Source: Neorhizobium petrolearium (GTDB lineage: Bacteria; Pseudomonadota; Alphaproteobacteria; Rhizobiales; Rhizobiaceae). Taken from it: a stretch of 64,000 bases of DNA. Each line of letters begins with the position of its first letter. Position 1 is the first letter of the stretch. This document shows, piece after piece, positions 4,394 through 59,039 of this stretch. Below the pieces are notes generated by a model. It was not told the DNA's origin. It ran no database searches and saw nothing but the letters and a program-made list of their open reading frames with translations. The stretch lies in assembly GCF_017873175.1 (NCBI RefSeq), contig NZ_JAGGJW010000015.1, positions 62,001 to 126,000 on the forward strand, in the 5' to 3' direction. Made by a program: the position numbers and the translations under genes.

Positions 4394-4481
4394 TACCGCC
4401 AGCCCCGTATCCAGCCGGGGTGGCAAATCCACAATTCCTCTTCATCGCCGCTGATAACGGTATTGGGTACGGGAGGCCAAG

Positions 4482-5051
4482 ATGGCCGCTGTTCTTGATT
4501 CTGTGCGCGCATTCTTTGCGCCGAACCCCACTTTCACCATAGACGCCGAAACGCCGGCCGACGTGGTGGCTCGCGAAAGCCTGCTCGACCGCGCCATGGG
4601 GCCGGATCGGAGGCTGAAGTCGTCGGAGAAGATCCGCCGCGGCCGCGTGCCGGCGGAAGGGCTGGCGCTCGTCGCCCGCGATGCGGCGGGACACGTGATC
4701 GCCACGGTTCGGTTGTGGAACATCGAAGCCGGTATTTCCCCCGACGGCCAGCCGATCGAGGCGCTGCTGCTCGGGCCGCTGGCGGTCGATTCCGCCCACG
4801 AGGGCAAGGGGATCGGCGGCGCCCTGATGCGGGCGGCGGTCACCGAAGCCCGCGGGCGCGGCCACGGCGCCATCCTGCTCGTCGGCGACGCTGCCTATTA
4901 CGAGCGGTTCGGCTTCTTTGCCGACAAGACCCGGCATCTCGTCATGCCCGGCCCGTTCGAGCGTTCCCGTTTCCTGGCGCTGGAGCTGAAGGCCGGCTGG
5001 CTGGAGGGTGCTGCGGGCATGATCGTGCCAAGCGGACGCAAGCTGGCCTGA
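4482..5051 (+). CDS. GNAT-family N-acetyltransferase
   Basis: A 189-residue acetyltransferase. The acetyl-CoA-binding motif A is visible as LGPLAVDSAHEGKGIGGALM (about residues 104-123), followed by motif B with YYERFGFFAD. It starts at an ATG preceded by GGGAGG. It lies 88 bases downstream of the ornithine decarboxylase, in the same direction, and could be co-transcribed with it. Acetylation of a polyamine or related amine is therefore a reasonable guess, but the substrate cannot be read from the sequence. A strong terminator follows at 5095-5129. Confidence 0.85.
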   Translation: MAAVLDSVRAFFAPNPTFTIDAETPADVVARESLLDRAMGPDRRLKSSEKIRRGRVPAEGLALVARDAAGHVIATVRLWNIEAGISPDGQPIEALLLGPLAVDSAHEGKGIGGALMRAAVTEARGRGHGAILLVGDAAYYERFGFFADKTRHLVMPGPFERSRFLALELKAGWLEGAAGMIVPSGRKLA

Positions 5052-5094
5052 TCCAAGGCATTTGATAAAAGCCTCGTATCCCCGATCTGCCCCG

Positions 5095-5129
5095 AAACCT
5101 CGCCTCCTTCCGATGGGAGGCGAGGTTTT
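5095..5129 (+). terminator. Rho-independent terminator after the odc-GNAT unit
   Basis: A 13-bp perfect stem (5095-5107 with 5116-5128) encloses an 8-base loop and ends in TTTT. It sits 44 bases after the GNAT stop, before the FNR box and the porin gene. The hairpin is almost symmetrical. Confidence 0.85.
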
Positions 5130-5183
5130 CCATGCGACAAATTTGCCACTCCGCCTCGCAAGCCGATGTCTCTCACGAGGCGG

Positions 5184-5197
5184 TTGATCCTGATCAA
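5184..5197. promoter_or_regulatory. Perfect FNR/FixK/Anr box upstream of the OmpW-type porin
   Basis: TTGATCCTGATCAA exactly matches the palindromic FNR/FixK consensus TTGAT-N4-ATCAA. Its centre is 75 bases before the porin start codon. A class II activator position (-41.5) would place the transcript start near 5232, giving a short leader of about 34 bases. Upstream activation by an oxygen-responsive Crp/FNR protein is inferred. Confidence 0.75.
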
Positions 5198-5265
5198 ACC
5201 GTCCCTCTTTTCCCAGGCCTACCGCTCTTCCTGCAAAGATCATTGCTGATTCAAGGAGAGGTTAA

Positions 5266-5955
5266 ATGAACATGAGCGGTGTACGGCATCTGAGATGGCT
5301 CGCAGGCGTCGGTGCGGCTTTTTTCGCATTCGGGGCGACGGCGGCGGACCTGACGCCGGCTCCGGTTGCCCCGGTGGCAGAGGAAACAGTGACTGGGCAA
5401 AGCCCGTGGCAGATCCGCGTACGCGGTTTGGGCGTCATCACTGAGGATGAGGGCTCGGTAAACGGCGTTCCGGGTTCGGATCTTTCCTATTCCGACTCGG
5501 TGATCCCGGAACTCGACATCACCTATTTCTTCACCGACAACATCGCCGCCGAACTCATTCTCGGAACGACCTATGCGAACATCAAGGAAGACGGCGCGGT
5601 CGGCGTTCCGGTCGGCCGGGCCTGGCTCCTGCCGCCGACACTCACGCTGCAATATCATTTCACCGATTTCGGCGCCTTCAAGCCGTATGTCGGCGCGGGC
5701 ATCAACTATACCTTCTTCTACAATCAGTCGGAAAAGCCAGGTTTCCATAACCTAGACGTGGAAAACCATGTCGGCGCTGCCTTGCAGGTCGGCTTCGACT
5801 ATATGATCGATCAGCACTGGGGCGTGAACTTCGACGTCAAGAAGATCTTCCTCGAAACCGACTGGAAGGCCGACCACGACGTCCTCGGCCCGCTCAGCGG
5901 CAAGGCGAAGATCAATCCCTGGCTGATCGGCGCGGGTGTCACCTACCGGTTCTAA
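5266..5955 (+). CDS. OmpW-family outer membrane protein
   Basis: A 229-residue protein with a signal peptide (cleavage likely after FAFGATA) and an 8-stranded OmpW-type beta-barrel. Alternating hydrophobic/polar strands end in the aromatic C-terminus GVTYRF, typical of BAM substrates. Segments such as PELDITYFFTDNIAAELI and GVNFDVKKIFLETDW match the OmpW family. The start follows AAGGAGAGG. OmpW proteins form narrow hydrophobic channels for small molecules. A perfect FNR/FixK box lies upstream, so it is probably induced at low oxygen, as ompW is in Escherichia coli. It is flanked by terminators and so forms a single-gene unit. Confidence 0.9.
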   Translation: MNMSGVRHLRWLAGVGAAFFAFGATAADLTPAPVAPVAEETVTGQSPWQIRVRGLGVITEDEGSVNGVPGSDLSYSDSVIPELDITYFFTDNIAAELILGTTYANIKEDGAVGVPVGRAWLLPPTLTLQYHFTDFGAFKPYVGAGINYTFFYNQSEKPGFHNLDVENHVGAALQVGFDYMIDQHWGVNFDVKKIFLETDWKADHDVLGPLSGKAKINPWLIGAGVTYRF

Positions 5956-5986
5956 AAAGAGAACAACGAGGGCGGTGGGTAGGCGG

Positions 5987-6012
5987 ACGACGCGGCGAAA
6001 GCCGCGTCGTTT
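5987..6012 (+). terminator. Hairpin terminator after the OmpW gene
   Basis: ACGACGCGGC (5987-5996) and GCCGCGTCGT (6001-6010) form a perfect 10-bp stem with a GAAA tetraloop, followed by a weak T stretch. It lies 32 bases after the porin stop and may serve both strands. Confidence 0.65.
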
Positions 6013-6073
6013 CCTGCTTCGGTAAACGCCCTGCCGAAACGATAACTTCCCAATCCGGATACCTCGATAACGA

Positions 6074-6927
6074 TCAGCTTATCTCGAAATGCATTCCATC
6101 CGGATTGTTGAAATGCCCTCCCCAAAAGATTTTGAGCCGGTTTGCCGCCGCCACGAGCTCGCGCACGGAGCCGCGGCTTCCGCAAAGCGCGGGTGTTTGT
6201 CCGAGCTGGTTGTCGACATAGTTGATGTCGAAGGCCGAACCGAAGGAATGGTTGCTGAGCGCGGAAACGTTGACGCTCTGCCGGATCGAGTGGCCGGCAT
6301 TCCCGGCAGGCGCCTGATTGCGCTTGTAACGCGGAACGAAGCAACCTTCGTATGACATTATCAGGTGGAGAAGGTGGCAACCTCCCAGGCATCGAAAAGC
6401 TGCTTGATCTGCTGCGCGGCCTTGGCATGGCAGCGTATCGATCCGTTATAGCCTCTGGCGAATTGCAACTGAGGCATGGGGATCTGAACGATATTGGCCG
6501 CTGTCCAATCATTCTGTTGCCCGTCGCAACTTCCCTTGATGACGATCGCTTCGCGATCGGGCCGTTGCGCCAGCGGCCTCTGGATAAATTCGAAGCAACT
6601 GAACTTGGCGTTTCGGGATGCATTGGTCGGACTTGAAAGACCTGCTGGAGGGGGAGGGTATGCCGTTCCGGCTTTCGTCATGTAGTAATTGTTGGGAACG
6701 ATCGTGTATCCAAGCGACGACGCCGCCTGCAGCGTTTTCTGGTCCACCCTGCCGTTCGCCGGCAGTCCGTTCTTCAACTGGAAAAACTTGGTTGCATCCT
6801 CCGTATTTTTCCCAAAGTCCCCGTCGATGTTTCCGGCCTGAGGGAAACCCTGTTTTCGCAGGAAATACTGCCAGCGCTGTACTTCCGCGATTACATTCGG
6901 TCCGCCTCGCGAGAGCGTAAATGCCAT
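6074..6927 (-). pseudogene. Peptidoglycan-binding / M15-type peptidase gene split by a frameshift
   Basis: Two adjacent frames encode consecutive parts of one protein. The first (to the stop at 6361) has a peptidoglycan-binding domain (WQYFLRKQGF, GNIDGDFGKNTEDATKFFQ) and the start of an M15 peptidase. The second (6358 to 6074) has the rest of the M15 zinc site: SNHSFGSAFDIN (zinc His and Asp), GGHFNNPDGMHFEIS (last zinc His). Read in the second frame, the bases before its first ATG continue the peptidase sequence (HLLHLI), so a one-base indel lies around 6363-6375. It would be a D-Ala-D-Ala carboxypeptidase or endolysin-like wall hydrolase if intact. The likely start is the ATG at 6927, with GGAGAG upstream. 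A sequencing error could mimic this. Confidence 0.7.
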
Positions 6928-6971
6928 TGCCATCTCTCTCCGCACTATTGGTTGCATTGTGTAAGAGATGC

Positions 6972-6977
6972 TATAAT
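6972..6977 (+). promoter_or_regulatory. Possible promoter -10 element for the serine hydrolase
   Basis: A consensus TATAAT (6972-6977) lies in an A/T-rich patch between the divergent M15 peptidase remnant and serine hydrolase genes. TTGGTT sits 18 bases upstream as a weak -35. It would give a leader of over 200 bases, so its assignment to the hydrolase is uncertain. Confidence 0.25.
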
Positions 6978-7199
6978 AAGTTTTGAATTTGTAAATCCTA
7001 TGGTTGTGTATTTTCTATTGTTCGCGTTATCTTCTGGGAAGACGGTGCGAGCCAGCCAGCTGCGTCAGCGGATCGTCTTTCTCAAGAGCAGGGCGTGTTT
7101 GTCACTCCGGGCTCTACCGATCTCACACACCATCACCATGGCGTGAATCCGGTCTTTCCGCCATATTCCTGGGCGATGTCATCCCGTAGTTTGTCATGC

Positions 7200-8261
7200 A
7201 TGATCCGACGCCGCACAACCCTCCTGTCCCTACCGTTCTTCCTTTCCGCCGCCCGAGGATTTGCGCAGGAAGGCTCGCCTCGGCCCGCGCCGCAGCCTCC
7301 GATGTCACAGCAGGCAGTGCCGCAGCCGCCGGTGACGCTCAAGACTGTGCTCGACGGGGCGGTGGAACTCGAGCCGCTGAAGGTCGTGCTCGTCTCGAAG
7401 AATGGCGGGATACTCGCCGAACGGGCGTTCAACGGCCGGTCGAGCAGTGCTTCAAGCAACATCAAGTCGGCCTCGAAATCGATCATCTCCTGCCTCGTGG
7501 GCATCGCCATCGACAAGAAACTGCTCGATGGGCCGGACCAGAAGATCGCGCCGATCCTCAAAGCCGATCTGCCGCAAAATCCCGATCCACGCATCCACGA
7601 GATCACCATCGGCCATCTTCTCTCGATGCAGGCGGGACTCGGGCGTATGTCCGGCCCGAACTATGGCCGCTGGGTTGCGAGCCGCAACTGGGTCCGTTTC
7701 GCGCTTGCCCAGCCCTTCGACGACGATCCGGGCGGCGGTATGCTCTATTCCACTGCCTCGACGCACCTGCTGTCGGCGATCCTCACCAGGGTCGGACGGA
7801 AATCGACGCTGGCTCTGGCGCGCGAATGGCTGGCGCCGGTCGAAGGTTTCCGCATCGGCGCCTGGGACCGTGACCCGCAAGGCATTTATCTCGGCGGCAA
7901 TCAGATGGCGATGACTGCCCGGTCGCTGCTTGCTTTCGGCGAGTTATACCGCAACGGCGGCAAGGCGAAATCCGGCGTGCAGGTCGTCTCGAAGAACTGG
8001 ATCGACCAGTCCTGGACGCAGCGCACCAACTCCCGCTTTTCCGGCGACGGTTATGGCTACGGCTGGTTTCTCAGGAATATCGGCGGCGAGGAGGTGAAGT
8101 TCGGCTGGGGGTATGGCGGGCAGATGCTCTATGTCATTCCATCGCTCGACCTCACCGTCGTCATGACCTCCGACGACGGCGGTCCCTCTGCCCGCAACGG
8201 CTATCGCGACGATCTGCATGATCTGCTTGCCGGGATCATCGGGGTCGTTCGAGAGGCGTAG
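7200..8261 (+). CDS. Serine hydrolase, beta-lactamase/penicillin-binding-protein class C fold
   Basis: A 353-residue exported protein. The N-terminus MIRRRTTLLSLPFFLSAARGFAQ looks like a Tat or Sec signal. The nucleophile motif SxxK is SASK in SASKSIISCLVG, and the second motif YxS is YST in MLYSTASTHL. The third KTG-like motif is not obvious; the region FGWGYGGQMLYVIP probably replaces it. The frame is open upstream to 7095, but the ATG at 7200 gives the signal peptide. It is related to class C beta-lactamase-like esterases and DD-peptidases. The substrate is not predictable, and there is no reason to call it a resistance enzyme. Confidence 0.8.
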   Translation: MIRRRTTLLSLPFFLSAARGFAQEGSPRPAPQPPMSQQAVPQPPVTLKTVLDGAVELEPLKVVLVSKNGGILAERAFNGRSSSASSNIKSASKSIISCLVGIAIDKKLLDGPDQKIAPILKADLPQNPDPRIHEITIGHLLSMQAGLGRMSGPNYGRWVASRNWVRFALAQPFDDDPGGGMLYSTASTHLLSAILTRVGRKSTLALAREWLAPVEGFRIGAWDRDPQGIYLGGNQMAMTARSLLAFGELYRNGGKAKSGVQVVSKNWIDQSWTQRTNSRFSGDGYGYGWFLRNIGGEEVKFGWGYGGQMLYVIPSLDLTVVMTSDDGGPSARNGYRDDLHDLLAGIIGVVREA

Positions 8262-8464
8262 AATTCTCATCCTTGAGTTGAAATCGATAAAATTCTAACG
8301 ACTGCGCGCACGATATCGAAAGGAGGTCGTATTACGGTTTTCTTGATTAGGGCTGGGCCTCCCAAATACGCAATCCATCCGGAGCCGCCGGATCACGTCC
8401 GATGAGCCGGGCGCATCTTGCGGAATGCGAATTGGGCGGGTTGCAACCCTGGCGGGGGAAGCAC

Positions 8465-9628
8465 ATGACGTTCGATCTCCGGACAATATATGCGATGACG
8501 GCGGTTGCCTGCGTGGTGCTGGGCATGCTCCAGTGCGCCGCCTATTTTACAGGTCGCTTCGAGCGCTGGCTCGCCTGGTGGAGTGCCAGCAACTTCCTCG
8601 TCGGGATCGGCTCCTTCTTAATTTCCCTTCACAGTATCGCGCCGGACTCCATGACGGTTCAATTCGGCAATGTCCTGACGGTCGCCGGTTGCGTGCTCTT
8701 GCCGGCATCCATGCGCATCTTCGTTGGGCGCACGGTGAGTCTTCTCCATTGCAGCCTCGTCATCGCCGTGCTCGGCATCCCCTTCGTTACGATTTTCAGC
8801 GCCCATGATGCGTCGCTCCAACGCATTGCCTATGGTTCGGCGGTCTATTGCCTGCTCGATCTGGCGGTCGCCCGGGAGGCCCATCGCCTCGGGCGGGAGG
8901 AGAAGCTCTATTCGGCGGAACTTGCCGTCGGCTTGTTCGTGCTGACGGCAATGCTCTATGCCAGCCGTTCCACCATGGCGATGACGGGCCTGCTGGGCGA
9001 CGGGAACCTGTTCAACGGCGGTGATGCGGTGCATGCCTGGGTAGCACTTTCGGCCATGGTGTTTCTCACGCTCCGCAGCATGGTCATCATGCTGATGGCG
9101 GGGGAAAGGGCAAGCGCCCGGCTCAGGGCGGCAGCCTATTGCGACGCGCTGACGGGCGTGCTCAACCGTGGGGGATTGGTACGGTCATTTGCCGAGCTTT
9201 CCCCGAAGCCGCTGGCCGTGCTGCTGATCGACATAGATCATTTCAAGCAGCTCAACGACGCCCATGGCCATGCCATGGGAGACGAGGTGCTGCGGGCGTT
9301 CGCATCGTCTGCAGCCAACGCGCTCGACGATGGTGATCTCATCGCCCGTCACGGCGGCGACGAATTCGTGATCGTGCTGAAAGAGCGTTCACTCGAACAG
9401 GCGGTGGCGATTGCGGAACATATCCGTCTCGCTTTCGTCACTTCGCTTCGCCGCCTCGGCGACCAGCTGTCGGTCCTGCCAACGCTCAGCATCGGGGCGG
9501 CGGCCGAAGGTGCGGGGCCTGTCGATCTCGAAGCCCTGCTTCACAAGGCGGATCAGGCGCTCTATGCGCGCAAACGGCAGGGGCGCAACGGAGTCGATGC
9601 CTTCAGGGAGGATGTGCTCGCGGCTTGA
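8465..9628 (+). CDS. Membrane diguanylate cyclase (GGDEF)
   Basis: A 387-residue protein with six or seven hydrophobic segments in residues 1-230 and a C-terminal GGDEF domain (about 235-385). The active-site loop is intact (RHGGDEFVIVL), with the metal-binding aspartate in LLIDIDHFKQLND. It should make cyclic di-GMP. The product-inhibition site RxxD, normally five residues before the loop, reads DDGD here, so feedback inhibition is probably lost. The ATG at 8465 is chosen because GCGGGGGAA precedes it; the upstream in-frame start at 8402 lacks such a site. It stands alone, with no linked phosphodiesterase nearby. Confidence 0.88.
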   Translation: MTFDLRTIYAMTAVACVVLGMLQCAAYFTGRFERWLAWWSASNFLVGIGSFLISLHSIAPDSMTVQFGNVLTVAGCVLLPASMRIFVGRTVSLLHCSLVIAVLGIPFVTIFSAHDASLQRIAYGSAVYCLLDLAVAREAHRLGREEKLYSAELAVGLFVLTAMLYASRSTMAMTGLLGDGNLFNGGDAVHAWVALSAMVFLTLRSMVIMLMAGERASARLRAAAYCDALTGVLNRGGLVRSFAELSPKPLAVLLIDIDHFKQLNDAHGHAMGDEVLRAFASSAANALDDGDLIARHGGDEFVIVLKERSLEQAVAIAEHIRLAFVTSLRRLGDQLSVLPTLSIGAAAEGAGPVDLEALLHKADQALYARKRQGRNGVDAFREDVLAA

Positions 9629-10031
9629 GAGGCGGGGACGAAACCGCCGGCGCAGAACGAATTTCTCCTGTTATTTGAATGGCGGCCGCGGGAAAATAAC
9701 GCCTCTGCATTCCCGTGTTTCGCCTGGCGGCTATTCTGTTTTCGTCATCGGGCAGGGAGCCGGGTCGCGAACCGGTCGCCATACGGGCAAGCAATCCGGC
9801 GCCCGGTGATGGTTGCAAAGGCCGGTCAGGCGTCGTCAGGACAAATGACCATGCTTACGCCGGAAAACGGGAACTGACACCTCCCGTCGGCCGCGAAAAC
9901 ATGAGGCCAGAAGCGACCGGGCAGGCGGACAAGCCTGACATCAATACCACACAATACCCACTGCCTGCCCATCCCACCCCTCGGGATCAGGTCGTGGCGG
10001 AGTTCTCTCCGCTGCGGGTCTTTGTGCTGAT
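9629..10031. other. Intergenic region with no recognised gene
   Basis: About 400 bases between the diguanylate cyclase and the convergent WD40 gene. Open frames exist here, but they show no family resemblance and overlap the WD40 gene on the other strand. I see no clear terminator or structured RNA. Confidence 0.5.
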
Positions 10032-11018
10032 TTATGCGGAAATATCCACTACGCCGCAATCGCCCGCTTCCGACGAGAAAGCCAGAAGCTTGCCGCTGGC
10101 GCTCCAGCTCAATCCTGTAATCGCGCCGTTGCCGGGACGGCGCAGCAGCGCCTCCTTCTGATCGGCGATCCTGACACCCAGGATCATGCCGTCGACGAAG
10201 CCGATGGCGAGCACCTCTTCAGCTGGATGGAATGCGACCTGCGTCACCATGATATTCGCGCGGGTGCCGAGCTCCAACGGCGCCTTGCCCATCGGGCCGT
10301 CCTTCGAGGAAAACGGCCAGACGATCGCCGCCGGCGCGCCGGAAGAGGCGAGCCACTTGCCCTTCGGCGACCAGGAGAGCGATTTCACCTTGGCGGGGTA
10401 GCCGGTCATACGCATGTGGCGGTTCTCGCCCGGCTTGCCGTCCAGCTTCCAGCCGTGCAGCGCGTTTTCCTGCATCATCGTAACGAGGAAACGGCCGTCC
10501 GGTGAGAAGGTGACGCCGGTATGCGCCCCCTTCCATTCCAGATCGACCGGCGGCGCATTGGTGCCGATCCAGTGTAGTGACACACCATTGTAACGGGCGG
10601 CGGCGATGCGCAGCCCCTTGGCGGCAAAGGCAAGGCCTTCGACGCTGCGGCTCTCGGGAAATTCCTTCAGCGAACCGTCATTCTGGCGCACAAAGCTCGA
10701 CTTGCCGTGGGCATAGGCGACCGCATTCTGTGGGCCGCCGGCCACGACATTGATCCATTTGCGCGGCGCATCGGCAACGAGAGTTGCCGCGCCGTCCTTG
10801 CCGATGCGGAAAACCTTGCCGTCTTCGCCGCCGGTAATCAGCGTCGGGCTGAAGGGATCGCGGATGCAGGTCAGCAGGCCCTGATGGGCTTCGGTGACCT
10901 TTTCGCCGCTGTCGAGGCGGTGGATCGTGCCGGCGGCGGTGGCGAAGAATGGAATGTCGCCGAGGAAATGGGCCGCGACGACATGGCCTTGCAAATCAAG
11001 CGGTGCAACAGTCGGCAT
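10032..11018 (-). CDS. WD40-repeat protein, partner of the COG0523 GTPase
   Basis: A 328-residue beta-propeller protein with degenerate WD40 repeats. Repeated blocks read like GVTFSPDGRFLVTMM, SLSWSPKGKWLASSGAPAAIVWPF, VAFHPAEEVLAIGFVDGMI and GLSWSASGKLLAFSSEAGDCGVVDI, consistent with about seven blades. There is no signal peptide, so it is cytoplasmic. The gene begins 61 bases after the COG0523 gene ends and is most likely co-transcribed with it under the Zur-like operator at 12281. A role as scaffold or partner for the metallochaperone is inferred from context only; no activity can be assigned. Confidence 0.85.
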   Translation of the reverse strand: MPTVAPLDLQGHVVAAHFLGDIPFFATAAGTIHRLDSGEKVTEAHQGLLTCIRDPFSPTLITGGEDGKVFRIGKDGAATLVADAPRKWINVVAGGPQNAVAYAHGKSSFVRQNDGSLKEFPESRSVEGLAFAAKGLRIAAARYNGVSLHWIGTNAPPVDLEWKGAHTGVTFSPDGRFLVTMMQENALHGWKLDGKPGENRHMRMTGYPAKVKSLSWSPKGKWLASSGAPAAIVWPFSSKDGPMGKAPLELGTRANIMVTQVAFHPAEEVLAIGFVDGMILGVRIADQKEALLRRPGNGAITGLSWSASGKLLAFSSEAGDCGVVDISA

Positions 11019-11079
11019 TACGCTGCATTTCTCCCCGGCTTGCCGTCACCCGGAAACCGCTTCACATTTTCTTCCGGCC

Positions 11080-12177
11080 TCATGCCGCAGCCTCACACGC
11101 TTTGAAGCTCTTCTCGATCTTCTCGACATCAAGATCGCGGCCGATGAAGACGAGCCGGGATTCGCGCTTCTCGCCATCCTTCCAAGGGCGCTGGTGATCG
11201 CCCTCGATGATCATGTGGACCCCCTGCACGACATAGCGCTCTTCGTCACCCTTGAAGGCGATGATGCCTTTGAGGCGCAGGATGTTCGGGCCGTCCGTCT
11301 GGGTGAGCTTCTGGATCCACGGGAAGAAGCGCTCCGGGTTCATCTCGCCGCCGCGCAGCGAGATCGACTTCACCGTCACGTCATGGATCGGCGATACGTC
11401 GCCATGGTGATGATGGTGGTGGTCATGATCGTGATCATGATCATGATGATGATGGTCGTGATCATGGTGGTGATGGTCATGGTCGCAATCCGGGCCGCAG
11501 ACGTGGTCTTCGTGGCCGTGCTCCAGGAAATGCGGATCGTTTTCCAGCGCGCGTTCCAGGTTGAAGGCGCCCTGGTCGAGAACACGGGCGAGATCGACGC
11601 CGGAGCGGCTCGTCTTATAGACGCGGGCGGCCGGGTTGATGGCGCGCACCACATCCTCGATCTCGGCTAGTTCCTCCGGCGAAACGAGGTCGGTCTTGTT
11701 GATGATCACGACGTCCGCAAAAGCGATCTGGTCCTCGGCCTCGCGGCTGTCTTTGAGGCGCAGCGGCAGATGCTTCGCGTCGACAAGGGCGACGACCGCA
11801 TCGAGCTCGGTCTTGGAGCGCACGTCGTCATCCATGAAGAAGGTCTGCGCGACCGGTACGGGATCCGCAAGACCGGTGGTCTCGACGATGATGCCGTCGA
11901 AGCGGCCCGGGCGGCGCATCAGGCCTTCGACCACGCGGATCAGGTCGCCGCGCACCGTGCAACAGACGCAGCCGTTGTTCATCTCGTAGATCTCTTCGTC
12001 CGACTCGACGATCAGGTCATTGTCGATGCCGATCTCGCCGAATTCGTTGACGATGACCGCATATTTCTTGCCGTGGCTTTCGGAGAGGATGCGGTTCAGG
12101 AGCGTCGTCTTGCCGGCGCCGAGATAACCGGTGAGCACGGTAACGGGAACGGGCTTCTGTGTGGCTGTTTCGGTCAT
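11080..12177 (-). CDS. COG0523/CobW-family GTPase, putative zinc metallochaperone
   Basis: A 365-residue P-loop GTPase. Walker A is GYLGAGKTTLLNRI (residues 18-31), the metal site CxCC is GCVCCTVRGDL (Cys70, 72, 73), and NKTD supplies guanine specificity (IINKTDL). A long His/Asp-rich metal-binding loop, at roughly residues 220-260, contains well over a dozen histidines. The C-terminal CobW_C domain follows. The frame is open to 12246, but the ATG at 12177 (MTETATQ) fits homologues and avoids the unrelated upstream residues. The His loop and an upstream Zur-like palindrome point to zinc supply during scarcity, not cobalamin synthesis; no cob genes are near. Confidence 0.88.
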   Translation of the reverse strand: MTETATQKPVPVTVLTGYLGAGKTTLLNRILSESHGKKYAVIVNEFGEIGIDNDLIVESDEEIYEMNNGCVCCTVRGDLIRVVEGLMRRPGRFDGIIVETTGLADPVPVAQTFFMDDDVRSKTELDAVVALVDAKHLPLRLKDSREAEDQIAFADVVIINKTDLVSPEELAEIEDVVRAINPAARVYKTSRSGVDLARVLDQGAFNLERALENDPHFLEHGHEDHVCGPDCDHDHHHHDHDHHHHDHDHDHDHHHHHHGDVSPIHDVTVKSISLRGGEMNPERFFPWIQKLTQTDGPNILRLKGIIAFKGDEERYVVQGVHMIIEGDHQRPWKDGEKRESRLVFIGRDLDVEKIEKSFKACEAAA

Positions 12178-12280
12178 GGAAAACCTCGAGGGATGTGGGA
12201 GCGCCCAAAATACGCAATTGCGGGCGAGGAAATTGGTCCGCCTCATATAAGGGCAAGCCGCGGCGACTTCAAAGGGTTTT

Positions 12281-12301
12281 GAATGTTATAAGATCACATG
12301 G
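12281..12301. promoter_or_regulatory. Candidate Zur operator
   Basis: ATGTTAT (12283-12289), spacer AAG, ATCACAT (12293-12299): an imperfect dyad with 6 of 7 positions paired. It resembles the Zur-box core AATGTTATA-N-TATAACATT. It lies about 110 bases before the start of the His-rich COG0523 GTPase gene, a gene class often under Zur control. The Zur regulator itself is not in the window. Confidence 0.5.
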
Positions 12302-12634
12302 CCGAGAATGCCGGAATCTTGTCAAGTGATCCGGTCCGGTTCAAGCCATCTGAATATTTGCGGATTACTACCTGCTCTTCCGACATAACCGCTTTTCTCC
12401 TGGTAGATATTCCGGGCAGGCAGGGACGAATTTTGTATAATGGAAGAGAAATATAAGTAATGTTTAATACACTATCCCAATCCATCTGGAAATGCCGGTT
12501 CAGAGATCAGGCGTAAAGTTCAGAAAGGCCGGACCTCGCTTCGGTTTTTTCTTGGAGACGACCTGCGTTGCAGCCGGCTCTTCGAGGAAACGGTCAATGA
12601 TGACCGTATCGTCGCGCTGCAATCCGGTAACGAC
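12302..12634. other. A/T-richer region upstream of the GNAT remnant
   Basis: Little gene-like sequence is seen here except the in-frame upstream extension of the GNAT frame from 12461, which has no ATG, GTG or TTG start before 12635. A 63-codon frame on the minus strand (12294-12485) has no recognisable features and covers the Zur-like site. Confidence 0.45.
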
Positions 12635-50858: not shown

Positions 50859-52124
50859 TTAGTTCGTCAGGCGGGTAGCCGTCTTGGCTGCCTTGCGGGC
50901 GATCTCGCCGAAACTCTGCACGAGCTGCGTCATGTCGTCCGGCTCGTAGTAATAGTCGGGACCAGTGGCGCAGTAGTTCAGCAGAGACTTGCCCTTGTCG
51001 GGAGCCATGAAGGCGATCGTGTAGATCTTGATGCCGTTGCCGGCCGTGTCCTTGTCCGCCTTGGCCTGGTCGCAGATGCCGCGCACCTTGGCGTCGATCG
51101 TGGAGTTCCACGAGCTGCTGTTGCCGGTCATCTCGCCGTCGGTCATGAAAACGATGAAGCGCTCGAAGCTGGTATTGCCCTTCCCGTCATGGGCGTTCTT
51201 TTCGGTGCTGTTTGCCTTTTTCAATGCGTTCAAGGCATAGGTCAGCGCGCCGCTGGCGTCGGTGCCGCCGTCGGGAACTGCCGGAAGGTTCTCCACATAA
51301 GTGGCAACCTTGGTGGTTCCCCAGTTGATCTTCTGCTCGGCCTTGCTCTTGTCGTCATAGGAATCTGCGCCGACGCGGACCAGTTCCCCATCAGGATCGG
51401 CCTTGTCCAGTTCATCGAACATGACGCCAGCCGCGGTCTTGAGGGATTGCATCTTGGTCAGGTAGTTGTCGATGGTTCTGTAGCAGGTCTTGGTTTGCCA
51501 GTAGTAACCATTCCAGGTGGAGCCGCAGTTATAGGCTTCCTGTTTCGTCGGCTGGGCGGGATTGATCGTCGTCGTATTCCAGGCCATGGAGCCGGATTCG
51601 TCAAGCGCCAGATACATGGACAGGGCGTTGCCTTCGCGGGCGCTCGCAGACTGACTTTCGATGCTGATGGTCATTTTCTTGAACCCGAGAACCGCGCTCA
51701 AGCCGCTGAGCGGCACGTCATAGCTCGTCTTGAGACGAACGTCATAGCTGGTCGTGGTGTTCGAGGCGACCGTCATCATTGCCGTGGCCTCGGTGTTCCG
51801 CCTAAGCTCCTCCAAGGCTGCCGCCCTTTGAGCATCGGTCATGTCGGAACTGTTGATCTCCTGTGCAGCCTGCTCGACGTAGAAGTCCGTCATCAACGTC
51901 TCTGCTTCCGACTGACTCATGTCGCCCTCATCGGACATGGCGGATGCGGCGGCAAGAGTGGCCGCGTCCGCGGCCGCCTGCAGGCGTGTCTTCTCGTCCA
52001 TGACGTGCGTGAGATCGATCGCAAAACCCGCAACGCCCAGAAGGACCGGGAGCATGGCGGCCGTCATGATACCGAAATTGCCGGCGCGGTCCTTCATCAG
52101 CCGCGAAAAGAGAGTGTGCTTCAT
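50859..52124 (-). CDS. TadG-like pilus-assembly protein with von Willebrand A domain
   Basis: A 421-residue protein. The N-terminal TadE/TadG-like segment is RAGNFGIMTAAMLPVLLGVA (a type IV-pilin-like hydrophobic helix, about residues 12-35). A von Willebrand A domain follows, with the metal-binding loop YLALDESGSMAW and TDGEMTGNSSS. The extracytoplasmic part likely takes part in surface assembly. No tad/cpa pilus genes adjoin, so it may be a stand-alone gene or a remnant. It is downstream of the transglutaminase-like operon on the same strand, 136 bases away. Confidence 0.83.
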   Translation of the reverse strand: MKHTLFSRLMKDRAGNFGIMTAAMLPVLLGVAGFAIDLTHVMDEKTRLQAAADAATLAAASAMSDEGDMSQSEAETLMTDFYVEQAAQEINSSDMTDAQRAAALEELRRNTEATAMMTVASNTTTSYDVRLKTSYDVPLSGLSAVLGFKKMTISIESQSASAREGNALSMYLALDESGSMAWNTTTINPAQPTKQEAYNCGSTWNGYYWQTKTCYRTIDNYLTKMQSLKTAAGVMFDELDKADPDGELVRVGADSYDDKSKAEQKINWGTTKVATYVENLPAVPDGGTDASGALTYALNALKKANSTEKNAHDGKGNTSFERFIVFMTDGEMTGNSSSWNSTIDAKVRGICDQAKADKDTAGNGIKIYTIAFMAPDKGKSLLNYCATGPDYYYEPDDMTQLVQSFGEIARKAAKTATRLTN

Positions 52125-52260: not shown

Positions 52261-53142
52261 TCAGGATTTCAGCGGGACGACGTCGACCGCCTGGACGGCC
52301 TTCTGACTTCCGTAACCCTTCAGAACCCCGATGACCGGGGCGATGTCGGCATAGTCGCGGCCGTAGGCCACGACGATATGGTCGCTGCCGGCCGGAATGT
52401 TGTTGGTGGGGTCGAGTTCGACATAGCCCATGGTCTCGCCGCACCACACCCTCACCCAGGCATGCATGGCATCCGCCCCTTCGAGCCGTTCCTTGCCGGG
52501 CGGCGGAATGGTGCGCAGGAAGCCGGAGACATAGCCGGCCGGGATGCCGAGGCTTCGAAGCGCCACGATCATGACATGCGCGAAATCCTGGCAGACCCCG
52601 CGCTTGAGGCGGAAGGCCTCCTTCGGCGTGGTGTCGACCGTGGTCGCCTTCGTATCGTAGGTGAAGTCCTTGTGGATGCGGGCGCAGATCGCAGCGGCAA
52701 TCTCGCGCACCGTCTGGCCGGGCCTGGCGATCTCGCGGGCATAGGCGGCGATCTGCGGCTCTTCGGGTAGACGCGGGCTCGGAGCGGCAAAGTGATGCGG
52801 CGAAGAGGCATCGACCGACCAGAGGCGCGTCAGTTCCTCCCTGAGCGCGTCGAGTTCCGGCGAGAGATCGGCCGTCAAAGGCTGAGGTTCCACCATGACA
52901 CGGGCCTGCATGCGGATGTCGAGACGCTCGTGCGGCGCGCGCAGTAGAACCGAAGTCGCCTGCTGGCCGAAGAAATCGATGAAGGTCGCCTTCTCCTCGG
53001 CGTTCGGCATCACGGTCAGCGAGCCGGCCACCAGCCGCTGCCGGTCGGGCAGCGAAAGCGGCAGGACACGGATCAGGTGGCGGGCGCCGGTGGCCGGCAC
53101 GTCATAGACATAACCCATGTGGAGGGAGAGGTCGTAAAGCAT
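52261..53142 (-). CDS. Transglutaminase-like protease-fold protein
   Basis: A 293-residue protein with an N-terminal beta-barrel domain (MLYDLSLHMGYVYDVPATG) and a transglutaminase core. The catalytic triad is Cys184 (RLKRGVCQDFAHVMIVALRS), His227 (GADAMHAWVRVW) and Asp244 (YVELDPTNN). Family members usually act as peptidases or amide-transfer enzymes, not classical cross-linkers. The start overlaps the ATP-grasp stop by one base (TGATG). It is the last gene of the operon. Confidence 0.88.
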   Translation of the reverse strand: MLYDLSLHMGYVYDVPATGARHLIRVLPLSLPDRQRLVAGSLTVMPNAEEKATFIDFFGQQATSVLLRAPHERLDIRMQARVMVEPQPLTADLSPELDALREELTRLWSVDASSPHHFAAPSPRLPEEPQIAAYAREIARPGQTVREIAAAICARIHKDFTYDTKATTVDTTPKEAFRLKRGVCQDFAHVMIVALRSLGIPAGYVSGFLRTIPPPGKERLEGADAMHAWVRVWCGETMGYVELDPTNNIPAGSDHIVVAYGRDYADIAPVIGVLKGYGSQKAVQAVDVVPLKS

Positions 53143-55553
53143 CAGCTGAAATAGGTCCGTCCGAGGATATCGGACAGCCTCTCCATCTCCTGTTCGAGCT
53201 TCAGGTAGACCTCCTGGTTCATCGCCTCCGGGGTCATGACGGCAAGCCCGGAATGCAGCCGCATCGCCTCGCGGTAGAAGGGCGACATCTGGCCGTTGAC
53301 GAAGGCGTTCGGCAACTGCTCCACCTCGGTGCGGATCTCGTTCAACTGGAAGAGGATCGAGCGCGGGTTGAGCGGATCGAGCGCGAGCAGGTCGGCGACC
53401 GTCAGCCGCGCCGTGTTGACGTTGTAGCGGCGGCGATGGGTCATGACGCTGTCGCCGATTTCGAGCAGCATGTCGAGCGAACCGTCGGGCGCATCCGGTC
53501 CGGACATATGGCCGAGCAGGCGGGTCATGTGCAGACCGCGTTCGAGATGCCGGCCGATCGACAGAAAACGCCAGCCGGTGAAGCGGTACATGTTCTCGTG
53601 CACGAGGCCGGCAAAGCCCGCAAGCTTGCGGAGCAGGATGGTCATCGCGTGGCTGGCATCGTCGCCCGGCTGAACGGCATCGTGGAAACGGCGGGCGGTC
53701 TTGGCGAGATCGGTCAGCGCCAGCCAGCCGTCGGGCGAGAAACGGTCGCGGATGTTGCTCGCCGAATAGATGGCGCTGTCGATGTTGCGCAGGAGCGAAA
53801 CCGGCACGGCCTTCGACATGTCGATGTCGATGCCCTTGAGGTAATGCGTCACGTCGGCGAGCAGCGGCTGTTCGGGATCGGCCGATTCCGCATAGCGCAG
53901 GTGCCAGGCGCGCAGGATGCGCAGCGCCCCTTCGGCCCGCTCGATATAGCGGCCGAGCCAGTAGAGATTGTCGGCGGCGCGGCTCGGCAGGCTGCCCGGC
54001 ATGTTGCGGGTGAAGCTTTCCTCCGGCGGAAGCAGCGTGGGGCGTGCGACCGGCTTGTCCGAGACGATCCAGACATCGGCCGCCGCTCCGCCGGCCTGCA
54101 TGGCGATCGCAGCGACATCGTCGCCCGAGCCGATGCGGGCAAAGCCGCCCGGCATGATCTGCCAGCCGGTTTCGGTGCGGGCGGCGAAGACGCGCAGCGA
54201 CATCGGTCGCGGGGTGAGCTTGCCGTTGACGTAAGCCGGGGTGGTGGAGAGCGTCACGACCTCCTGACCGACCAGTTTGGCGCCCTCGGTCGCAAGCCAG
54301 TCGCCGACCGCGTCCTTCGCCGTCATGCGCAGCGAGGAGCCCAGCACCGACTGGCCGTTGTCGTCGAAGAAGGGAAGCCTGGAATAGGCCGGGCCGATGA
54401 CCATACGCTCGATATTGCCGGCGACGTGGTCGCGCTCGTTCTTCTGGCCGCACCACCATGTGGCGATCGAGGGCATGAGAAGGTCCTCGCCGGTGAGCCG
54501 GCGACAGACAGTCGGCATGAAGGCGAGCAGCGCGCGGGTTTCCAGGATGCCGGAGCCCAGCGCATTGACGAAGGCGAGCGCGCCGGCCCGCAGCGCCTGC
54601 ACCATGCCGGGCGTGCCGATATGGGAGTTCTGATTGAGCTCCAGCGGGTCGGCATATGAAGCGTCAAGGCGGCGCCAGAGCACGCCGATTGGCTTCAGGC
54701 CGGCGACCGTGCGGACCATGACGCGATTGTTGACGACGGTCAGATCCTCGCCTTCCAGAAGCATGAAGCCGAGATAGCGGGCGATATAGGCGTGCTCGAA
54801 ATAGGTCTCGTTGGCCGGTCCCGGCGTCAGCACCGCGATCCGGTCCTCCGGATACTGCTTGTGGGCCTGGAGCGCATCGCGGAAGGCACCGAAGAAGGAG
54901 GCGAGCCGGTGGACATGGCTTTCGGCATAGATGTCGGAAAAGGCGCGGGTGGTGGCGACACGGTTTTCCAGCGCGAAGCCGGCGCCCGAGGGCGCCTGGG
55001 TGCGGTCGGCGAGCACCCACCAGTTGCCGTCCGGGCCGCGGCCGATCTCGAAGGAGCAGAAATGCAGGTAATGGCCGCCAACCGGTTTGACGCCGACCAG
55101 CGGCCGCAGAAACTCGGAATTTCCGGCGATCAGCGCCGGCGGCAGGATGCCTTCCTGCACCAGCCTGTTGTCGCCGTAGATATCCGCCATGATGGCTTCG
55201 AGAAGATCGGCGCGCTGGACGAGCCCCTTCGAGACCGCTTCCCATTCCTTGCCGTCGATCAGTACCGGGACATGGGAGATTGGCCAGTTGCGCTCGCCGC
55301 TGCCCTGTGCGCCATAGGTGCGGTAGAAGACGCCGGCATCGCGCAGGTAGCGGTCGGCGCGGGCGAAGCGCTCGTGGAGCTCCGCCTCCGGCATGCGGCT
55401 CAGGTGCGAGATCAGGTTGCGCCAGACCGGCTTGATCTGGCCACCGGCATCCAGCATCTCGTCGGCGATGCCCGGCAGCGCGGCATAACCGAGGATCGGA
55501 TCGGTGGCGACCCTCTCTTCATTTGCCAGTCCGGTTGCCGGTGCCTTGGACAT
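53142..55553 (-). CDS. Circularly permuted ATP-grasp and alpha-E domain fusion protein
   Basis: An 803-residue protein. Residues 1 to about 500 form the circularly permuted ATP-grasp domain (LADRTQAPSGAGFALENRV, SRLPFFDDNGQSVL, LSTTPAYVNGKLTPRPMSLR). Residues from about 518 form the alpha-E helical domain (PSRAADNLYWLGRYIERAEG to the end). ATP-grasp enzymes of this type are predicted peptide-bond or amide ligases that use ATP; the alpha-E domain is a partner. In many genomes these are separate genes, so the fusion is notable. It starts 9 bases after the amidoligase stop. Function is inferred from the conserved neighbourhood only. Confidence 0.87.
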   Translation of the reverse strand: MSKAPATGLANEERVATDPILGYAALPGIADEMLDAGGQIKPVWRNLISHLSRMPEAELHERFARADRYLRDAGVFYRTYGAQGSGERNWPISHVPVLIDGKEWEAVSKGLVQRADLLEAIMADIYGDNRLVQEGILPPALIAGNSEFLRPLVGVKPVGGHYLHFCSFEIGRGPDGNWWVLADRTQAPSGAGFALENRVATTRAFSDIYAESHVHRLASFFGAFRDALQAHKQYPEDRIAVLTPGPANETYFEHAYIARYLGFMLLEGEDLTVVNNRVMVRTVAGLKPIGVLWRRLDASYADPLELNQNSHIGTPGMVQALRAGALAFVNALGSGILETRALLAFMPTVCRRLTGEDLLMPSIATWWCGQKNERDHVAGNIERMVIGPAYSRLPFFDDNGQSVLGSSLRMTAKDAVGDWLATEGAKLVGQEVVTLSTTPAYVNGKLTPRPMSLRVFAARTETGWQIMPGGFARIGSGDDVAAIAMQAGGAAADVWIVSDKPVARPTLLPPEESFTRNMPGSLPSRAADNLYWLGRYIERAEGALRILRAWHLRYAESADPEQPLLADVTHYLKGIDIDMSKAVPVSLLRNIDSAIYSASNIRDRFSPDGWLALTDLAKTARRFHDAVQPGDDASHAMTILLRKLAGFAGLVHENMYRFTGWRFLSIGRHLERGLHMTRLLGHMSGPDAPDGSLDMLLEIGDSVMTHRRRYNVNTARLTVADLLALDPLNPRSILFQLNEIRTEVEQLPNAFVNGQMSPFYREAMRLHSGLAVMTPEAMNQEVYLKLEQEMERLSDILGRTYFS

Positions 55554-55562
55554 CGACTTCTC

Positions 55563-58500
55563 TTACACTCCTTGCGGCCGGCGCAGGTCGAGCGTCAGCG
55601 GGAATTCGGGCGAGGGCGCTTCCGGCATCAGCGCGTAGCGCCCCGCCGTATGCCCCCATGGTTCGAACCGGGCAAGCCGGCGTGCTTCCGCCTCGTTGCC
55701 GTTGACCGGGAAGGTCTCATAGTTGCGACCACCCGGATGGGCAACATGGTAGATGCAGCCGCCGATCGAACGGCCGGACCATGTATCATAAATGTCGAAG
55801 GTGAGTGGCGTATTAACCGGCAGGACCGGATGCAGGCCGGACGCCGGCTGCCAGGCCTTGAAACGCACGCCCGCCACCGAGACGCCGGATGCGCCGGTTT
55901 CCTTCAGCGGCACGGCGCGGCCGTTGCAGGCGACCGTGTAGCGCGACGGGTTGGAGGTCTCCAGCCGGACCTGCAGGCGTTCGACCGACGAATCGACGTA
56001 ACGCACCGTGCCGCCGATCGCCCCCTGCTCGCCCATCACGTGCCAGGGTTCGAGCGCCTGGCGGAGTTCCAGCTTCGAGCCCTCGTATTCCACCTCGCCG
56101 AAGAAGGGGAAGCGGAATTCGAGCTGTGCCTTGAACCATTCGGGGCGGAAATCGAAACCGTTTTCGCGCAGGTCGGCCAGTACATCAAGAAAATCGGCCC
56201 AGATGTAGTGCGGCAGCATGAAACGGTCGGCAAGCGCCGTGCCCCAGCGGACGAACCTGCCATCGATCGGGTTCTTCCAGAAGCGGGCGATGAGCGCCCG
56301 CACGAGAAGCTGCTGGGCAAGCGACATGCGGGCGTTCGGCGGCATTTCGAAGCCGCGGAATTCGATCAGGCCGAGTCGCCCGGTCGGGCCGTCCGGGGAG
56401 AAGAGCTTGTCGATGCAGATTTCCGAACGGTGGGTATTGCCGGTGACGTCGACCAGCAGGTTTCGGAACAGGCGGTCCACCAGCCATGGTAGCGGCGGCA
56501 TGCCCCGTCCGGGCGGCGGCACCTGGGCAAGCGCGATCTCCAGCTCGTAGAGCGAATCGTGGCGGGCCTCGTCGATGCGCGGCGCCTGGGAGGTCGGGCC
56601 GATGAAGAGGCCGGAGAAGAGATAGGAAAGCGAGGGATGGCGCTGCCAGTGCAGCACGATGCTCTTCAGAAGGTCCGGCCGGCGCAGGAACGGGCTGTCG
56701 TTCGGGTTCGCTCCGCCGACCACGACATGGTTGCCGCCGCCGGTGCCGGTGTGGCGTCCGTCAATCATGAACTTGTCGGCACCGAGCCGGCTCTGGCGGG
56801 CCTCCTCGTAGATCGCGGTGGTGATGCCGACCGTCTCGCTCCAGCTCGCGGCGGGGTGGATATTCACCTCGATGACGCCGGGATCGGGGGCGACGCGGAT
56901 GACGTTGATGCGCTCGTCGTGCGGCGGCGCATAGCCCTCGATATGGACAGCGAGGCCGAGCGCGGCCGCCGCGTTTTCCGCCGCCGCGATCAATTCGAGA
57001 TAATCCTCGATCCGCTCGGTTGGCGGCATGAAGACGCAGAGGCGACCGTCGCGCGGCTCGACCGAAATGGCGGTGCGGACGGCGCCGCCGATGTCGCCGA
57101 GGGTCTGTTCGACACGGTCCTGAATTGCAGTTTCGTCCGCCTGGAACGAGGCCTCCGGCATGGCACGGCCGCTCGGGACGAAGACATCCGGCAAGGGGCC
57201 GCGGGGGATGAAGGGATCGGCCTCGTGGATATAGGGAAACTGCGACGGCGGCACGTAAGGGAGCGTGCCGAGCGGCAGGCGGTAACCGACCGGGCTGTCA
57301 CCGGGAACGAGGAAGATCCTGCCGCGGCGGGTACGCCATTTCTCGCTCACCCAGCGGCGGCCGCTTGCCGTTCCCCTGGCTTGGGCGTTCCAGACCTGGA
57401 CGGGGAGCACGTGGCCGGTCGGCCGCGTCAGGCCCCGCTCGAAGACGCGGGCGATGCGGCTTCTCTCCTCCGGGTCTTTCAGCTTGGAATTGGACGGATC
57501 GACATTCTCCGGCAGGCTGCCTTCCTTGATGATCCATTCGGCCGGGTCCTCGAAGGCCGGCGCGACGTAATCGGGATCAATGCCGAGCTCGCCGGCAATC
57601 GCCGTCAGGAGCCTTGCGGAATCGTCCTCGATAACGTCGCGATCGCTTCCTTCCTCGGCAATCAGGTCCGGATTGCGCCAGATCGGCTGGCCGTCCTTGC
57701 GCCAGTAGAGCGAGAAGGTCCAGCGCGGCAGGCTTTCGCCCGGATACCACTTGCCCTGGCCGTAATGCAGGAAGCCGCCCGGCGCGAAACGCTCCCGCAG
57801 CCGGCGGATCAGGGCATCGGCCTTCTCCCGCTTGGTCGGGCCGACGGCGGCTGTGTTCCACTCGTCGGATTCGAAATCGTCGATCGACACGAAGGTCGGC
57901 TCGCCGCCCATAGTCAGCCGCACGTCCTGCGCCTGGAGGACGCGGTCGACCTGCTCACCGAGATCGTTCAGCGCTTCCCAGGATTCGTCGGAAAAGGGCT
58001 TGGTGATGCGCGGATGCTCGGCGACGCGGGCGACCCGCATGTCGAAGGCGAAATCCGTCTCGGCCTCGCCGTAATAGCCACCCGAAATCGGTGCGGCATT
58101 GCGGTAATGCGGGGTCGCGGCAAGCGGGATATGGCTTTCGCCGGTCAGGAGGCCCGAGGTGGGGTCGAGGCCGACCCAGCCGGCGCCGGGAAGATAGGCC
58201 TCCGCCCAGGCGTGCAGGTCGGTGAAATCGACCTCGGTGCCGGACGGACCGTCGAGGGCCTTGAGATCCGGCGTCAGCTGGATCAGGTAGCCCGAGACGA
58301 AGCGGGCGGCAAAACCGAGATGGCGCAGCAACTGCACGAGCAGCCAGCTCGTGTCACGGCAGGAGCCCCTCGCGGTCGCAAGCGTCTCCTCCGGCGCCTG
58401 GACGCCGGGCTCCATGCGGATCACATAGCCGATCTCCTTCTGAAGGCGGGCGTTCAGGCCGACGATCATGTCGACCGTCGGCTGGTCGGGAGACTGGTCG

Positions 58501-58901
58501 ATCGAATTGACGAAGGCTTGCAGGAGGGGCGTTGCCGGCTCCGGCTTGCGGTAGATCGAAAGGTCCTCGACCAGCGTTTCGGGATAGTCGAACGGCCATC
58601 TGGTCGCCTCCTCCTCGACGAAGAAGTCGAAGGGATTGTAGACCGTCATGTCGGCGACGAGATCGACCTCGATCTTCAGTTCGGTGACCGGATCGGGAAA
58701 GACGTAGCGGGCGAGATAGTTGCCGTAGGGGTCCTGCTGCAGGTTCACGAAATGGTTGGAAGGGGTCACCTTCAGCGAATGGCTGAGCACCTTGGTGCGG
58801 GAATGGGCGGCGGGCTTCAGCCTGATGATCTGCGGTCCTAGACGGACGGGTCGGTCGTATTTGTAATGGGTGAGGTGATAGATGCTCGCCTTGATCGCCA
58901 T
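55563..58901 (-). CDS. Transglutaminase-like domain fused to a DUF2126 putative amidoligase
   Basis: A 1112-residue protein. The N-terminal transglutaminase-like half has Cys181 ([16 protein letters not shown]), His230 ([16 protein letters not shown]) and Asp246 (DPTSG). The C-terminal part from about residue 325 is DUF2126, a predicted GCS-like amidoligase ([11 protein letters not shown] at 332-342; [19 protein letters not shown] near 717-735; [15 protein letters not shown]). It probably joins amines to acids with ATP. It is first in the operon, followed by the ATP-grasp gene. No substrate is known. Confidence 0.88.
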
Positions 58902-59039
58902 TGTGCCCCTTGCCGGCCGTTCGAAGAGCCTGAGCTCACTGGCCGATCGATGATGATTGCAAGGATTTTGTGCGCTGCATGAAAATAATGCAAGGTGGAT
59001 TTAGTGCTTGTCCTGTTCCGTCCGGATCCGCGCCTCGGG

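Follow-up and report, generated by a model that had tools for sequence, protein, structure and literature searches.

An ATP-grasp protein without its catalytic residues in a conserved transglutaminase-DUF2126 operon of Neorhizobium petrolearium, and a possible partner ligase at a second locus

Results

In a stretch of 64,000 nucleotides of Neorhizobium petrolearium DNA (contig NZ_JAGGJW010000015.1, positions 62,001 to 126,000 of the forward strand, called the window in the following), three tightly packed genes occupy positions 58901-52261 of the minus strand. Gene A (55563..58901, 1112 amino acids (aa)) encodes a transglutaminase-like cysteine amidase domain joined to a DUF2126 domain, gene B (53142..55553, 803 aa) a circularly permuted (CP) ATP-grasp joined to an Alpha-E domain, and gene C (52261..53142, 293 aa) a second transglutaminase-like cysteine amidase, all assigned with Pfam. 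Genes A and B are separated by 9 bases (55554..55562), into which an extra peptide gene would not fit, and the start of C overlaps the end of B, which reads ..TGATG.., so that the stop codon of B and the ATG of C have one base in common. The layout and the domain content given in a first-pass annotation, made by a model from the letters of this stretch, are thus borne out by the coordinates and by Pfam. Its suggestion that these three genes alone form and cut amide bonds is not: gene B has lost the residues expected of a working ATP-grasp and is probably a pseudo-ligase, and the operon may be one half of a system whose other half lies elsewhere in the genome (7.0 Mb in 64 contigs, with the window on contig 15).

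An open reading frame (ORF) of 732 aa at the position of gene C was rejected as a candidate; it is the same frame prolonged into B, and relatives agree with the 293-aa reading. As DUF2126 occurs in 40 of the 120 genomes sampled from the phylum, as relatives are many (588 of 591 candidates among the matches listed from a species-level collection, to which the counts of that scan apply), and as A, B and C are consecutive on one strand in 64 of the best 80 loci, with contig ends and failures of the simple gene caller among the other 16, the operon is not a chance arrangement. Among plasmid records, the closest named relative is a Shinella replicon, with 84% identity in gene A, and no NCBIfam family was found for any of the three proteins.

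That gene B is an ATP-grasp, as first annotated, holds for its fold (CP_ATPgrasp_2 456 bits, CP_ATPgrasp_1 287 bits, Alpha-E 201 bits), with an ATP-grasp of the glutathione-synthetase type at residues 96-474 and Alpha-E at residues 522-802, but not for its catalytic residues. I compared fused CP-ATP-grasp-Alpha-E proteins (type b, n = 105) with stand-alone CP-ATP-grasp proteins (type a, n = 22, including the copy on contig C9 of the same genome), after dropping rows cut by contig ends (type a of at most 430 aa, B-type of at most 700 aa), at four positions equivalent to the magnesium (Mg) and ATP ligands E, N, K and K of glutathione-synthetase-type enzymes. All four residues are present in 22/22 type-a proteins, while 96/105 type-b proteins have none and 9/105 have one. 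In gene B of the window A182, R184, R340 and G387 stand where E, N, K and K are expected, and none of the four is kept. In type a the motif V-L-E-D-N-x-R-x-P-S-G-V-S is invariant, one lysine lies in D-D-K and another ahead of a G-G-Y-G loop; the counterpart of the motif in type b reads V-L-(A/G)-D-R-T-Q-A-P-S-G-A-G, and of these features of the intact paralogues gene B has kept neither E-x-N, nor either of the lysines, nor the glycine loop. The order of the motifs in type a is that of the glutathione synthetases (E-x-N, SK, K..EGGGN), in which I take the E-x-N residues to be Glu144 and Asn146. In these enzymes, Lys305, Lys364 and the G-loop bind phosphate and Asp/Glu are Mg ligands, all of them parts of the ATP site (PMC2845819; papers cited by such numbers are represented here by excerpts). 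Since gene B lacks the residues that bind Mg and the phosphates of ATP, its sequence marks it as probably a pseudo-ligase.

The shell of the ATP-grasp is kept, as the model of gene B (predicted local distance difference test (pLDDT) 90.9) has the fold of 3n6x (E 3e-31, template modelling (TM) score 0.87 over the target) and of the glutathione synthetases; in the Foldseek search the human enzyme 2hgs was matched with E 4.8e-12 and 3kal_B with E 9e-14, and homoglutathione synthetase and GspS (2io7) were found as well, with a sequence identity of 12-14% to 2hgs, 3kal and 2io7. None of the listed matches is evidently to Alpha-E, match ranges not being given. PDB entry 9cjn, the ligase Cp1B released in 2025, is also among the matches (E 1.6e-8), and a literature search on Cp1B found nothing. 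At the sequence level, no significant bridge from type a to a glutathione synthetase was obtained. Types a and b lie on opposite sides of one tree branch with a support of 100, which fits a single loss of the residues. Gene B is under purifying selection, with ratios of nonsynonymous to synonymous substitution rates (dN/dS) of 0.10-0.28 in five comparisons, two of which have a dS near 1, and has therefore been kept for some function; the ratio is 0.09-0.18 in gene A and 0.09-0.40 over all three genes.

Gene A consists of Bact_transglu_N (residues 6-83), Transglut_core (129-247) and DUF2126 (279-1107; PF09899, 1336 bits against a cut-off of 27). Its triad C181, H230 and D246 is kept in 112/112 aligned DUF2126 proteins longer than 1000 aa, shorter ones (up to 1000 aa) being left out of the counts, among them a split gene of Acidithiobacillus caldus. 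On a megaplasmid of that species (L072, 8001-12793) the two pieces of gene A lie about 1.4 kb apart, with two Anbu-like genes and ntrC/glnL nearby. Identity to the DUF2126 protein of the window is 52-86% over 28 proteins of the phylum. A loss of ATP-binding residues is seen in the ATP-grasp, one of the two ligase domains named by the first-pass annotation. DUF2126 keeps a large set of invariant polar residues; E678, H725, E847 and R849 are among its invariant positions. The best match of the gene A model (pLDDT 79.7) is the transglutaminase-like 3isr (E 3e-14), followed by weak Foldseek matches to glutamine synthetase 8fbp, gamma-glutamylmethylamide synthetase (GMAS) 9qur, 5dm3 and 1tt4, with E-values of 0.014-0.04 and TM scores over the target of 0.24-0.35. 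A local profile alignment, not significant, places G-V-I-E-V-N of DUF2126 on the Q-x-E region of glutamine synthetase and G-T-G-G-G-N-H on G-S-G-M-H; no significant link at the sequence level was obtained between DUF2126 and glutamine synthetase or GCS2, and a PDB sequence search with DUF2126 gave chance matches alone (E 0.9). DUF2126 is probably the active ligase of the operon, a reading to which the name of its Pfam family points.

Gene C has Bact_transglu_N and Transglut_core domains. Among 96 stand-alone transglutaminase-like proteins, 87 of them encoded directly behind a fused B-type gene, the triad is conserved at C184 (96/96), H227 (95/96) and D244 (96/96), and both transglutaminase cores thus keep Cys-His-Asp, as had been read from the window alone. 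The genome has four copies of Bact_transglu_N. A further transglutaminase-like gene of 354 aa lies outside both sets described here (L036, G000:C18, 9441-10505, plus strand; G000 is the genome of the window), and a second ORF behind it (10530-11396) was also matched by BLAST. HvyA, another transglutaminase homologue (PMC10274813), was not used in the analysis.

The same genome encodes DUF2126 once and Alpha-E twice, in the window and on contig C9. There, on another contig than the window, lies a CP-ATP-grasp/Alpha-E/transglutaminase set (G000:C9:150774-154020) with a stand-alone type-a protein (C9:150774-152198, 790 bits against the type-a profile), an Alpha-E protein (C9:152220-153146, 319 aa, 313 bits) and a transglutaminase-like protein of 283 aa; the ORF behind them is unrelated, and Anbu is missing there. 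The only PF00227 match of the genome directly adjoins hslU and is read as HslV. Because Anbu scores barely exceed the PF00227 cut-off (24-31 bits), a second search was made with a profile of nine Anbu sequences, which found matches in 42 of the 120 sampled genomes and none in this genome at E 1e-6. The absence of anbu, observed earlier for the window, thereby extends to the searched genome as a whole.

Across the 120 genomes of the phylum, where type a is present in 69 and type b in 37, type a accompanies DUF2126 in 40/40 and type b in 37/37 cases, and is found in 29/80 genomes without DUF2126. The 40 genomes with DUF2126 divide into 19 with type b and Anbu, 16 with type b only, 3 with Anbu only and 2 with neither (G049 and G097, both fragmented), Anbu being missing in 18 of them; two genomes have type b without DUF2126. 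Type a is present in most genomes of the window's class anyway, so that the association says less inside the class. Outside it, type a is found in 28/28 genomes with DUF2126 and in 16/61 without (genus-level p 3e-7 if genera are independent), and lies within 11 kb of DUF2126 in 25/28. In a sample of 81 Rhizobiaceae genomes, nearly one per genus, 42/42 genomes with type b have type a, 26 have type a only and 13 have neither. In the sampled genomes an intact type a accompanies DUF2126 and B without exception, and the operon probably does not form a complete system by itself.

Both halves lie side by side, for example, in the annotated sequences of a Caballeronia megaplasmid and an Enterobacter plasmid. 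The latter, a 90 kb IncFII plasmid of E. roggenkampii (L074), carries the complete set of five genes at 3171-12362 (type-a ligase, Alpha-E, transglutaminase-DUF2126, fused B-type and transglutaminase), with arsC at a distance of about 2 kb. In Caballeronia (L071) a putative zinc metallopeptidase gene (Peptidase_Mx and zinc ribbon, 7814-8929, minus strand) lies between the halves on the opposite strand.

The surroundings of the operon gave no hint to a substrate, as clustering the ORFs of 122 regions brought up no more than lineage synteny next to operons of the window type (the products of the clusters were mostly read by eye, and part of them identified). The genes of this synteny include glgB (19 loci), a TadE/G gene with a VWA domain (18) and glgP (17). 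In the window, a TadE/G-like protein with a VWA domain is encoded at 50859-52124 of the same minus strand, 136 bases behind gene C. The gaps of 9, 138 and 136 bases at the operon are too short for a small tag-protein gene such as a Pup-proteasome or other peptide-tag system would have beside its ligase, the rest of the genome not having been searched for one, and no promoter- or terminator-like pattern at the operon rose above shuffles. Far from it, the plus strand at 2841-3163 has the Alphaproteobacterial small RNA ar45 (159 bits) and, immediately behind it, a speF leader (102 bits), with an ORF at 3260-4393 downstream of the pair.

Discussion

In the sampled genomes a conserved operon whose ATP-grasp looks dead occurs together with an intact second ligase. 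The operon is hence probably one of the two parts of a system with a link to nitrogen. That it is specifically the accessory half of a two-locus ligase/amidase system for amide bonds, built like the glutathione pathway, I consider an even call, and the pseudo-ligase is held with more confidence than this whole two-locus reading. Pseudo-enzymes elsewhere dock with or regulate active enzymes, and glutathione synthesis combines a glutamine-synthetase-fold enzyme with a glutathione-synthetase-fold enzyme. Gene B, a conserved ATP-grasp without the Mg- and phosphate-binding residues, would be a non-catalytic partner that docks with or regulates the intact ligase, here that of the C9 set, through its ATP-grasp shell and Alpha-E, and this may be why DUF2126 and B were found only in sampled genomes with type a. 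DUF2126 would be an active amidoligase of the glutamine-synthetase fold, and it and the type-a ligase might act in sequence like GshA and GshB. The product could be a small gamma-glutamyl- or isopeptide-like compound, or such a compound attached to something, and the transglutaminase-like domains of A and C may be thiol amidases or transferases acting on the same bond. The set may, as first annotated, synthesise a tag or small peptide and hydrolyse it.

The system may serve the nitrogen economy, as gene sets in Burkholderia and Pseudomonas respond to NtrC or to nitrogen limitation. In B. cenocepacia, loss of ntrC lowers the expression of I35_5080-83 (DUF404/407, DUF403, transglutaminase-like and large transglutaminase-like) 6- to 9-fold (PMC5491218), and the large protein may carry DUF2126, judging from its size and from Caballeronia. 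In P. putida, PP_2686-2688 are up 11- to 37-fold under nitrogen limitation (PMC7801951), and PP2685-2687 7- to 11-fold in a separate study (PMC3325844). Expression of Anbu under nitrogen starvation is reported (PMC6376114, PMC5666114), and in marine metagenomes the domains of the set correlate with urea-metabolism domains (PMC3597751). On the A. caldus megaplasmid, ntrC and glnL adjoin the set, near which an aliphatic amidase and an APC permease are also encoded. A sigma54-like site was found 5' of 10/18 type-a genes outside the window's class versus 6/162 other genes there, and all five sites with p <=0.02 (of 116) belong to type-a or DUF2126 genes outside the class. The DUF2126 genes of the window's class have such sites at background frequency (2/89 vs 28/922). 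Sigma54 control of the window operon was considered and rejected: the best score in the 138-base gap 5' of gene A (58902..59039) is a background-like 11.5 of 15, reached by shuffles of this region in 67% of 60 trials. In the relatives the connection with nitrogen is well supported; on this analysis it is unproven for the window operon.

Several observations weigh against the two-locus reading. No sigma54-like site was found at the window operon or at four tested type-a genes of its class, including that on C9, and the score cut-off of 13.5 for such sites was chosen after a first look. The P. putida genes, where PP_2685-2688 is presumed to be such a set, are still up 14- to 20-fold in an rpoN mutant (PP_2686 14-fold; PMC7801951). 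Co-expressed proteins of the Yersinia bercovieri Anbu operon formed no stable complex with Anbu in the excerpted account (PMC6376114), and another excerpt favours a role of Anbu in degrading proteins and argues against a peptide-synthesis system (PMC5666114). Although the E and N columns of the alignment are secure, those of the second lysine and the G-loop are gappy in type b, and the mapping of residues to glutathione synthetase rests on the fold match and the motif order; hhalign of type a against GSP_synth aligned the motif correctly at a non-significant probability of 0.6%. The likeness of DUF2126 to glutamine synthetase is weak (Foldseek E >0.001, hhalign probability 0.6%). Co-occurrence does not prove interaction, and its tests assume an independence of the genomes that does not hold. 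In the window's class the halves are far apart, lying within 11 kb in 1/12 cases, and in the Rhizobiaceae sample halves on one contig are never less than 88 kb apart.

A bolder form of the two-locus reading, which I regard as unlikely, makes gene B a dedicated pseudo-ligase whose clade lost catalysis in a single event at its origin. As a partner subunit it would bring the type-a ligase, together with the Alpha-E protein of that ligase, to DUF2126, and the two ligases and two thiol amidases would form one tagging or storage machine for nitrogen starvation, which in the window's class would be divided over replicons or over loci far apart.

Alternatively, the ATP-grasp of gene B may have been re-tooled, its new motif D183-R184-T-Q186-A-P-S-G..G192 binding another ligand or catalysing a metal-poor reaction. 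R184 (98/105), Q186 (90/105) and G192 (105/105) are conserved in type b, and selection on the gene is purifying, which suggests that the site has retained a function. However, the phosphate lysines and the G-loop are gone too, which leaves no recognisable triphosphate site, and I find this explanation rather doubtful.

Gamma-glutamyl-amide ligases glutamylate amines, and DUF2126 might likewise glutamylate external amines under nitrogen limitation, with the thiol amidases freeing the nitrogen. The responses of the relatives, the genes around the A. caldus set (ntrC and glnL adjoining, amidase and permease near) and the fold match to GMAS would suit such scavenging, but that match has a non-significant E-value, and beyond lineage-wide synteny neither a transporter nor an oxidase is a recurrent neighbour of the operon in the 122 regions. 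Amine scavenging is distinctly unlikely.

The original idea of a self-contained operon, in which a peptide tag or small peptide is formed by the ATP-grasp together with DUF2126 and cut by the transglutaminase-like proteins, draws on the conserved A-B-C order, on the recognition of the ATP-grasp fold at 456 bits, and on the ATP-grasp of the Y. bercovieri Anbu operon, which releases phosphate from ATP, but is encoded there as a protein separate from Alpha-E (PMC6376114). With the four residues E, N, K and K lost in gene B along with the glycine loop, and with neither B nor DUF2126 ever found without type a in the two samples, it appears quite improbable. That the operon is a decaying relic of an Anbu-type system, for which the dead ligase and the genomes lacking Anbu (this one and 18/40 with DUF2126) could be cited, is largely refuted by the selection values of all three genes, by full-length conserved orthologues and by invariant triads, and is highly improbable.

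Sets of Anbu, ATP-grasp, Alpha-E and DUF2126 genes are widespread (40/120 phylum genomes have DUF2126, 69/120 the type-a ligase), and no product is reported for them in the literature searched. If gene B is a pseudo-ligase and the working ligase is encoded elsewhere in the genome, studies confined to the three genes would leave half of the system unseen, which could explain uninformative single-operon assays. In the literature searched, no paper names DUF2126 and 'alpha-E domain' occurs in one unrelated paper; likewise, outside most subscription papers, no report was found of a dead ATP-grasp in such a set or of dependence on a second locus.

Comparison with known systems

Iyer, Abhiman, Burroughs and Aravind reportedly predicted in 2009 a peptide-tagging system of ATP-grasp, glutamine-synthetase-like ligase, Alpha-E and Anbu. 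The families of the operon belong to such predicted systems, as first annotated: circularly permuted ATP-grasp, putative DUF2126 amidoligase, Alpha-E and transglutaminase-like proteins are shared. The differences are that no Anbu was found in this genome, that the ATP-grasp of the window lacks the catalytic residues, and that the intact set is on another contig. The gene set has thus been predicted before, and the dead ATP-grasp and its tie to a second locus appear new, though the 2009 survey may have noted part of this.

The eukaryotic-type glutathione synthetase and the glutathionylspermidine synthetase/amidase of E. coli share the fold of the first domain of gene B and, in concept, the pairing of ligase and thiol amidase. 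In contrast to them, gene B has no E-x-N, neither lysine and no G-loop, and Alpha-E has no counterpart there. The four genes I35_5080-83 of B. cenocepacia, for ATP-grasp, Alpha-E, transglutaminase-like and large transglutaminase-like proteins, are alike in content; they are NtrC-dependent in the excerpted study, whereas the window operon shows no sigma54-like site. The Rlo system, which also has an ATP-grasp and an inactive transglutaminase, was set aside as it belongs to a different family (PMC12239564).

The Anbu operons of Y. bercovieri and Pseudomonas have ATP-grasp, Alpha-E and transglutaminase-like genes in common with the operon (PMC6376114, PMC5666114). In the Yersinia operon, ATP-grasp and Alpha-E are separate proteins and, according to the excerpts, Anbu showed no peptidase activity while the ATP-grasp released phosphate (PMC6376114). 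The nearer relative of these operons in N. petrolearium is the type-a set on contig C9, and not the operon of the window.

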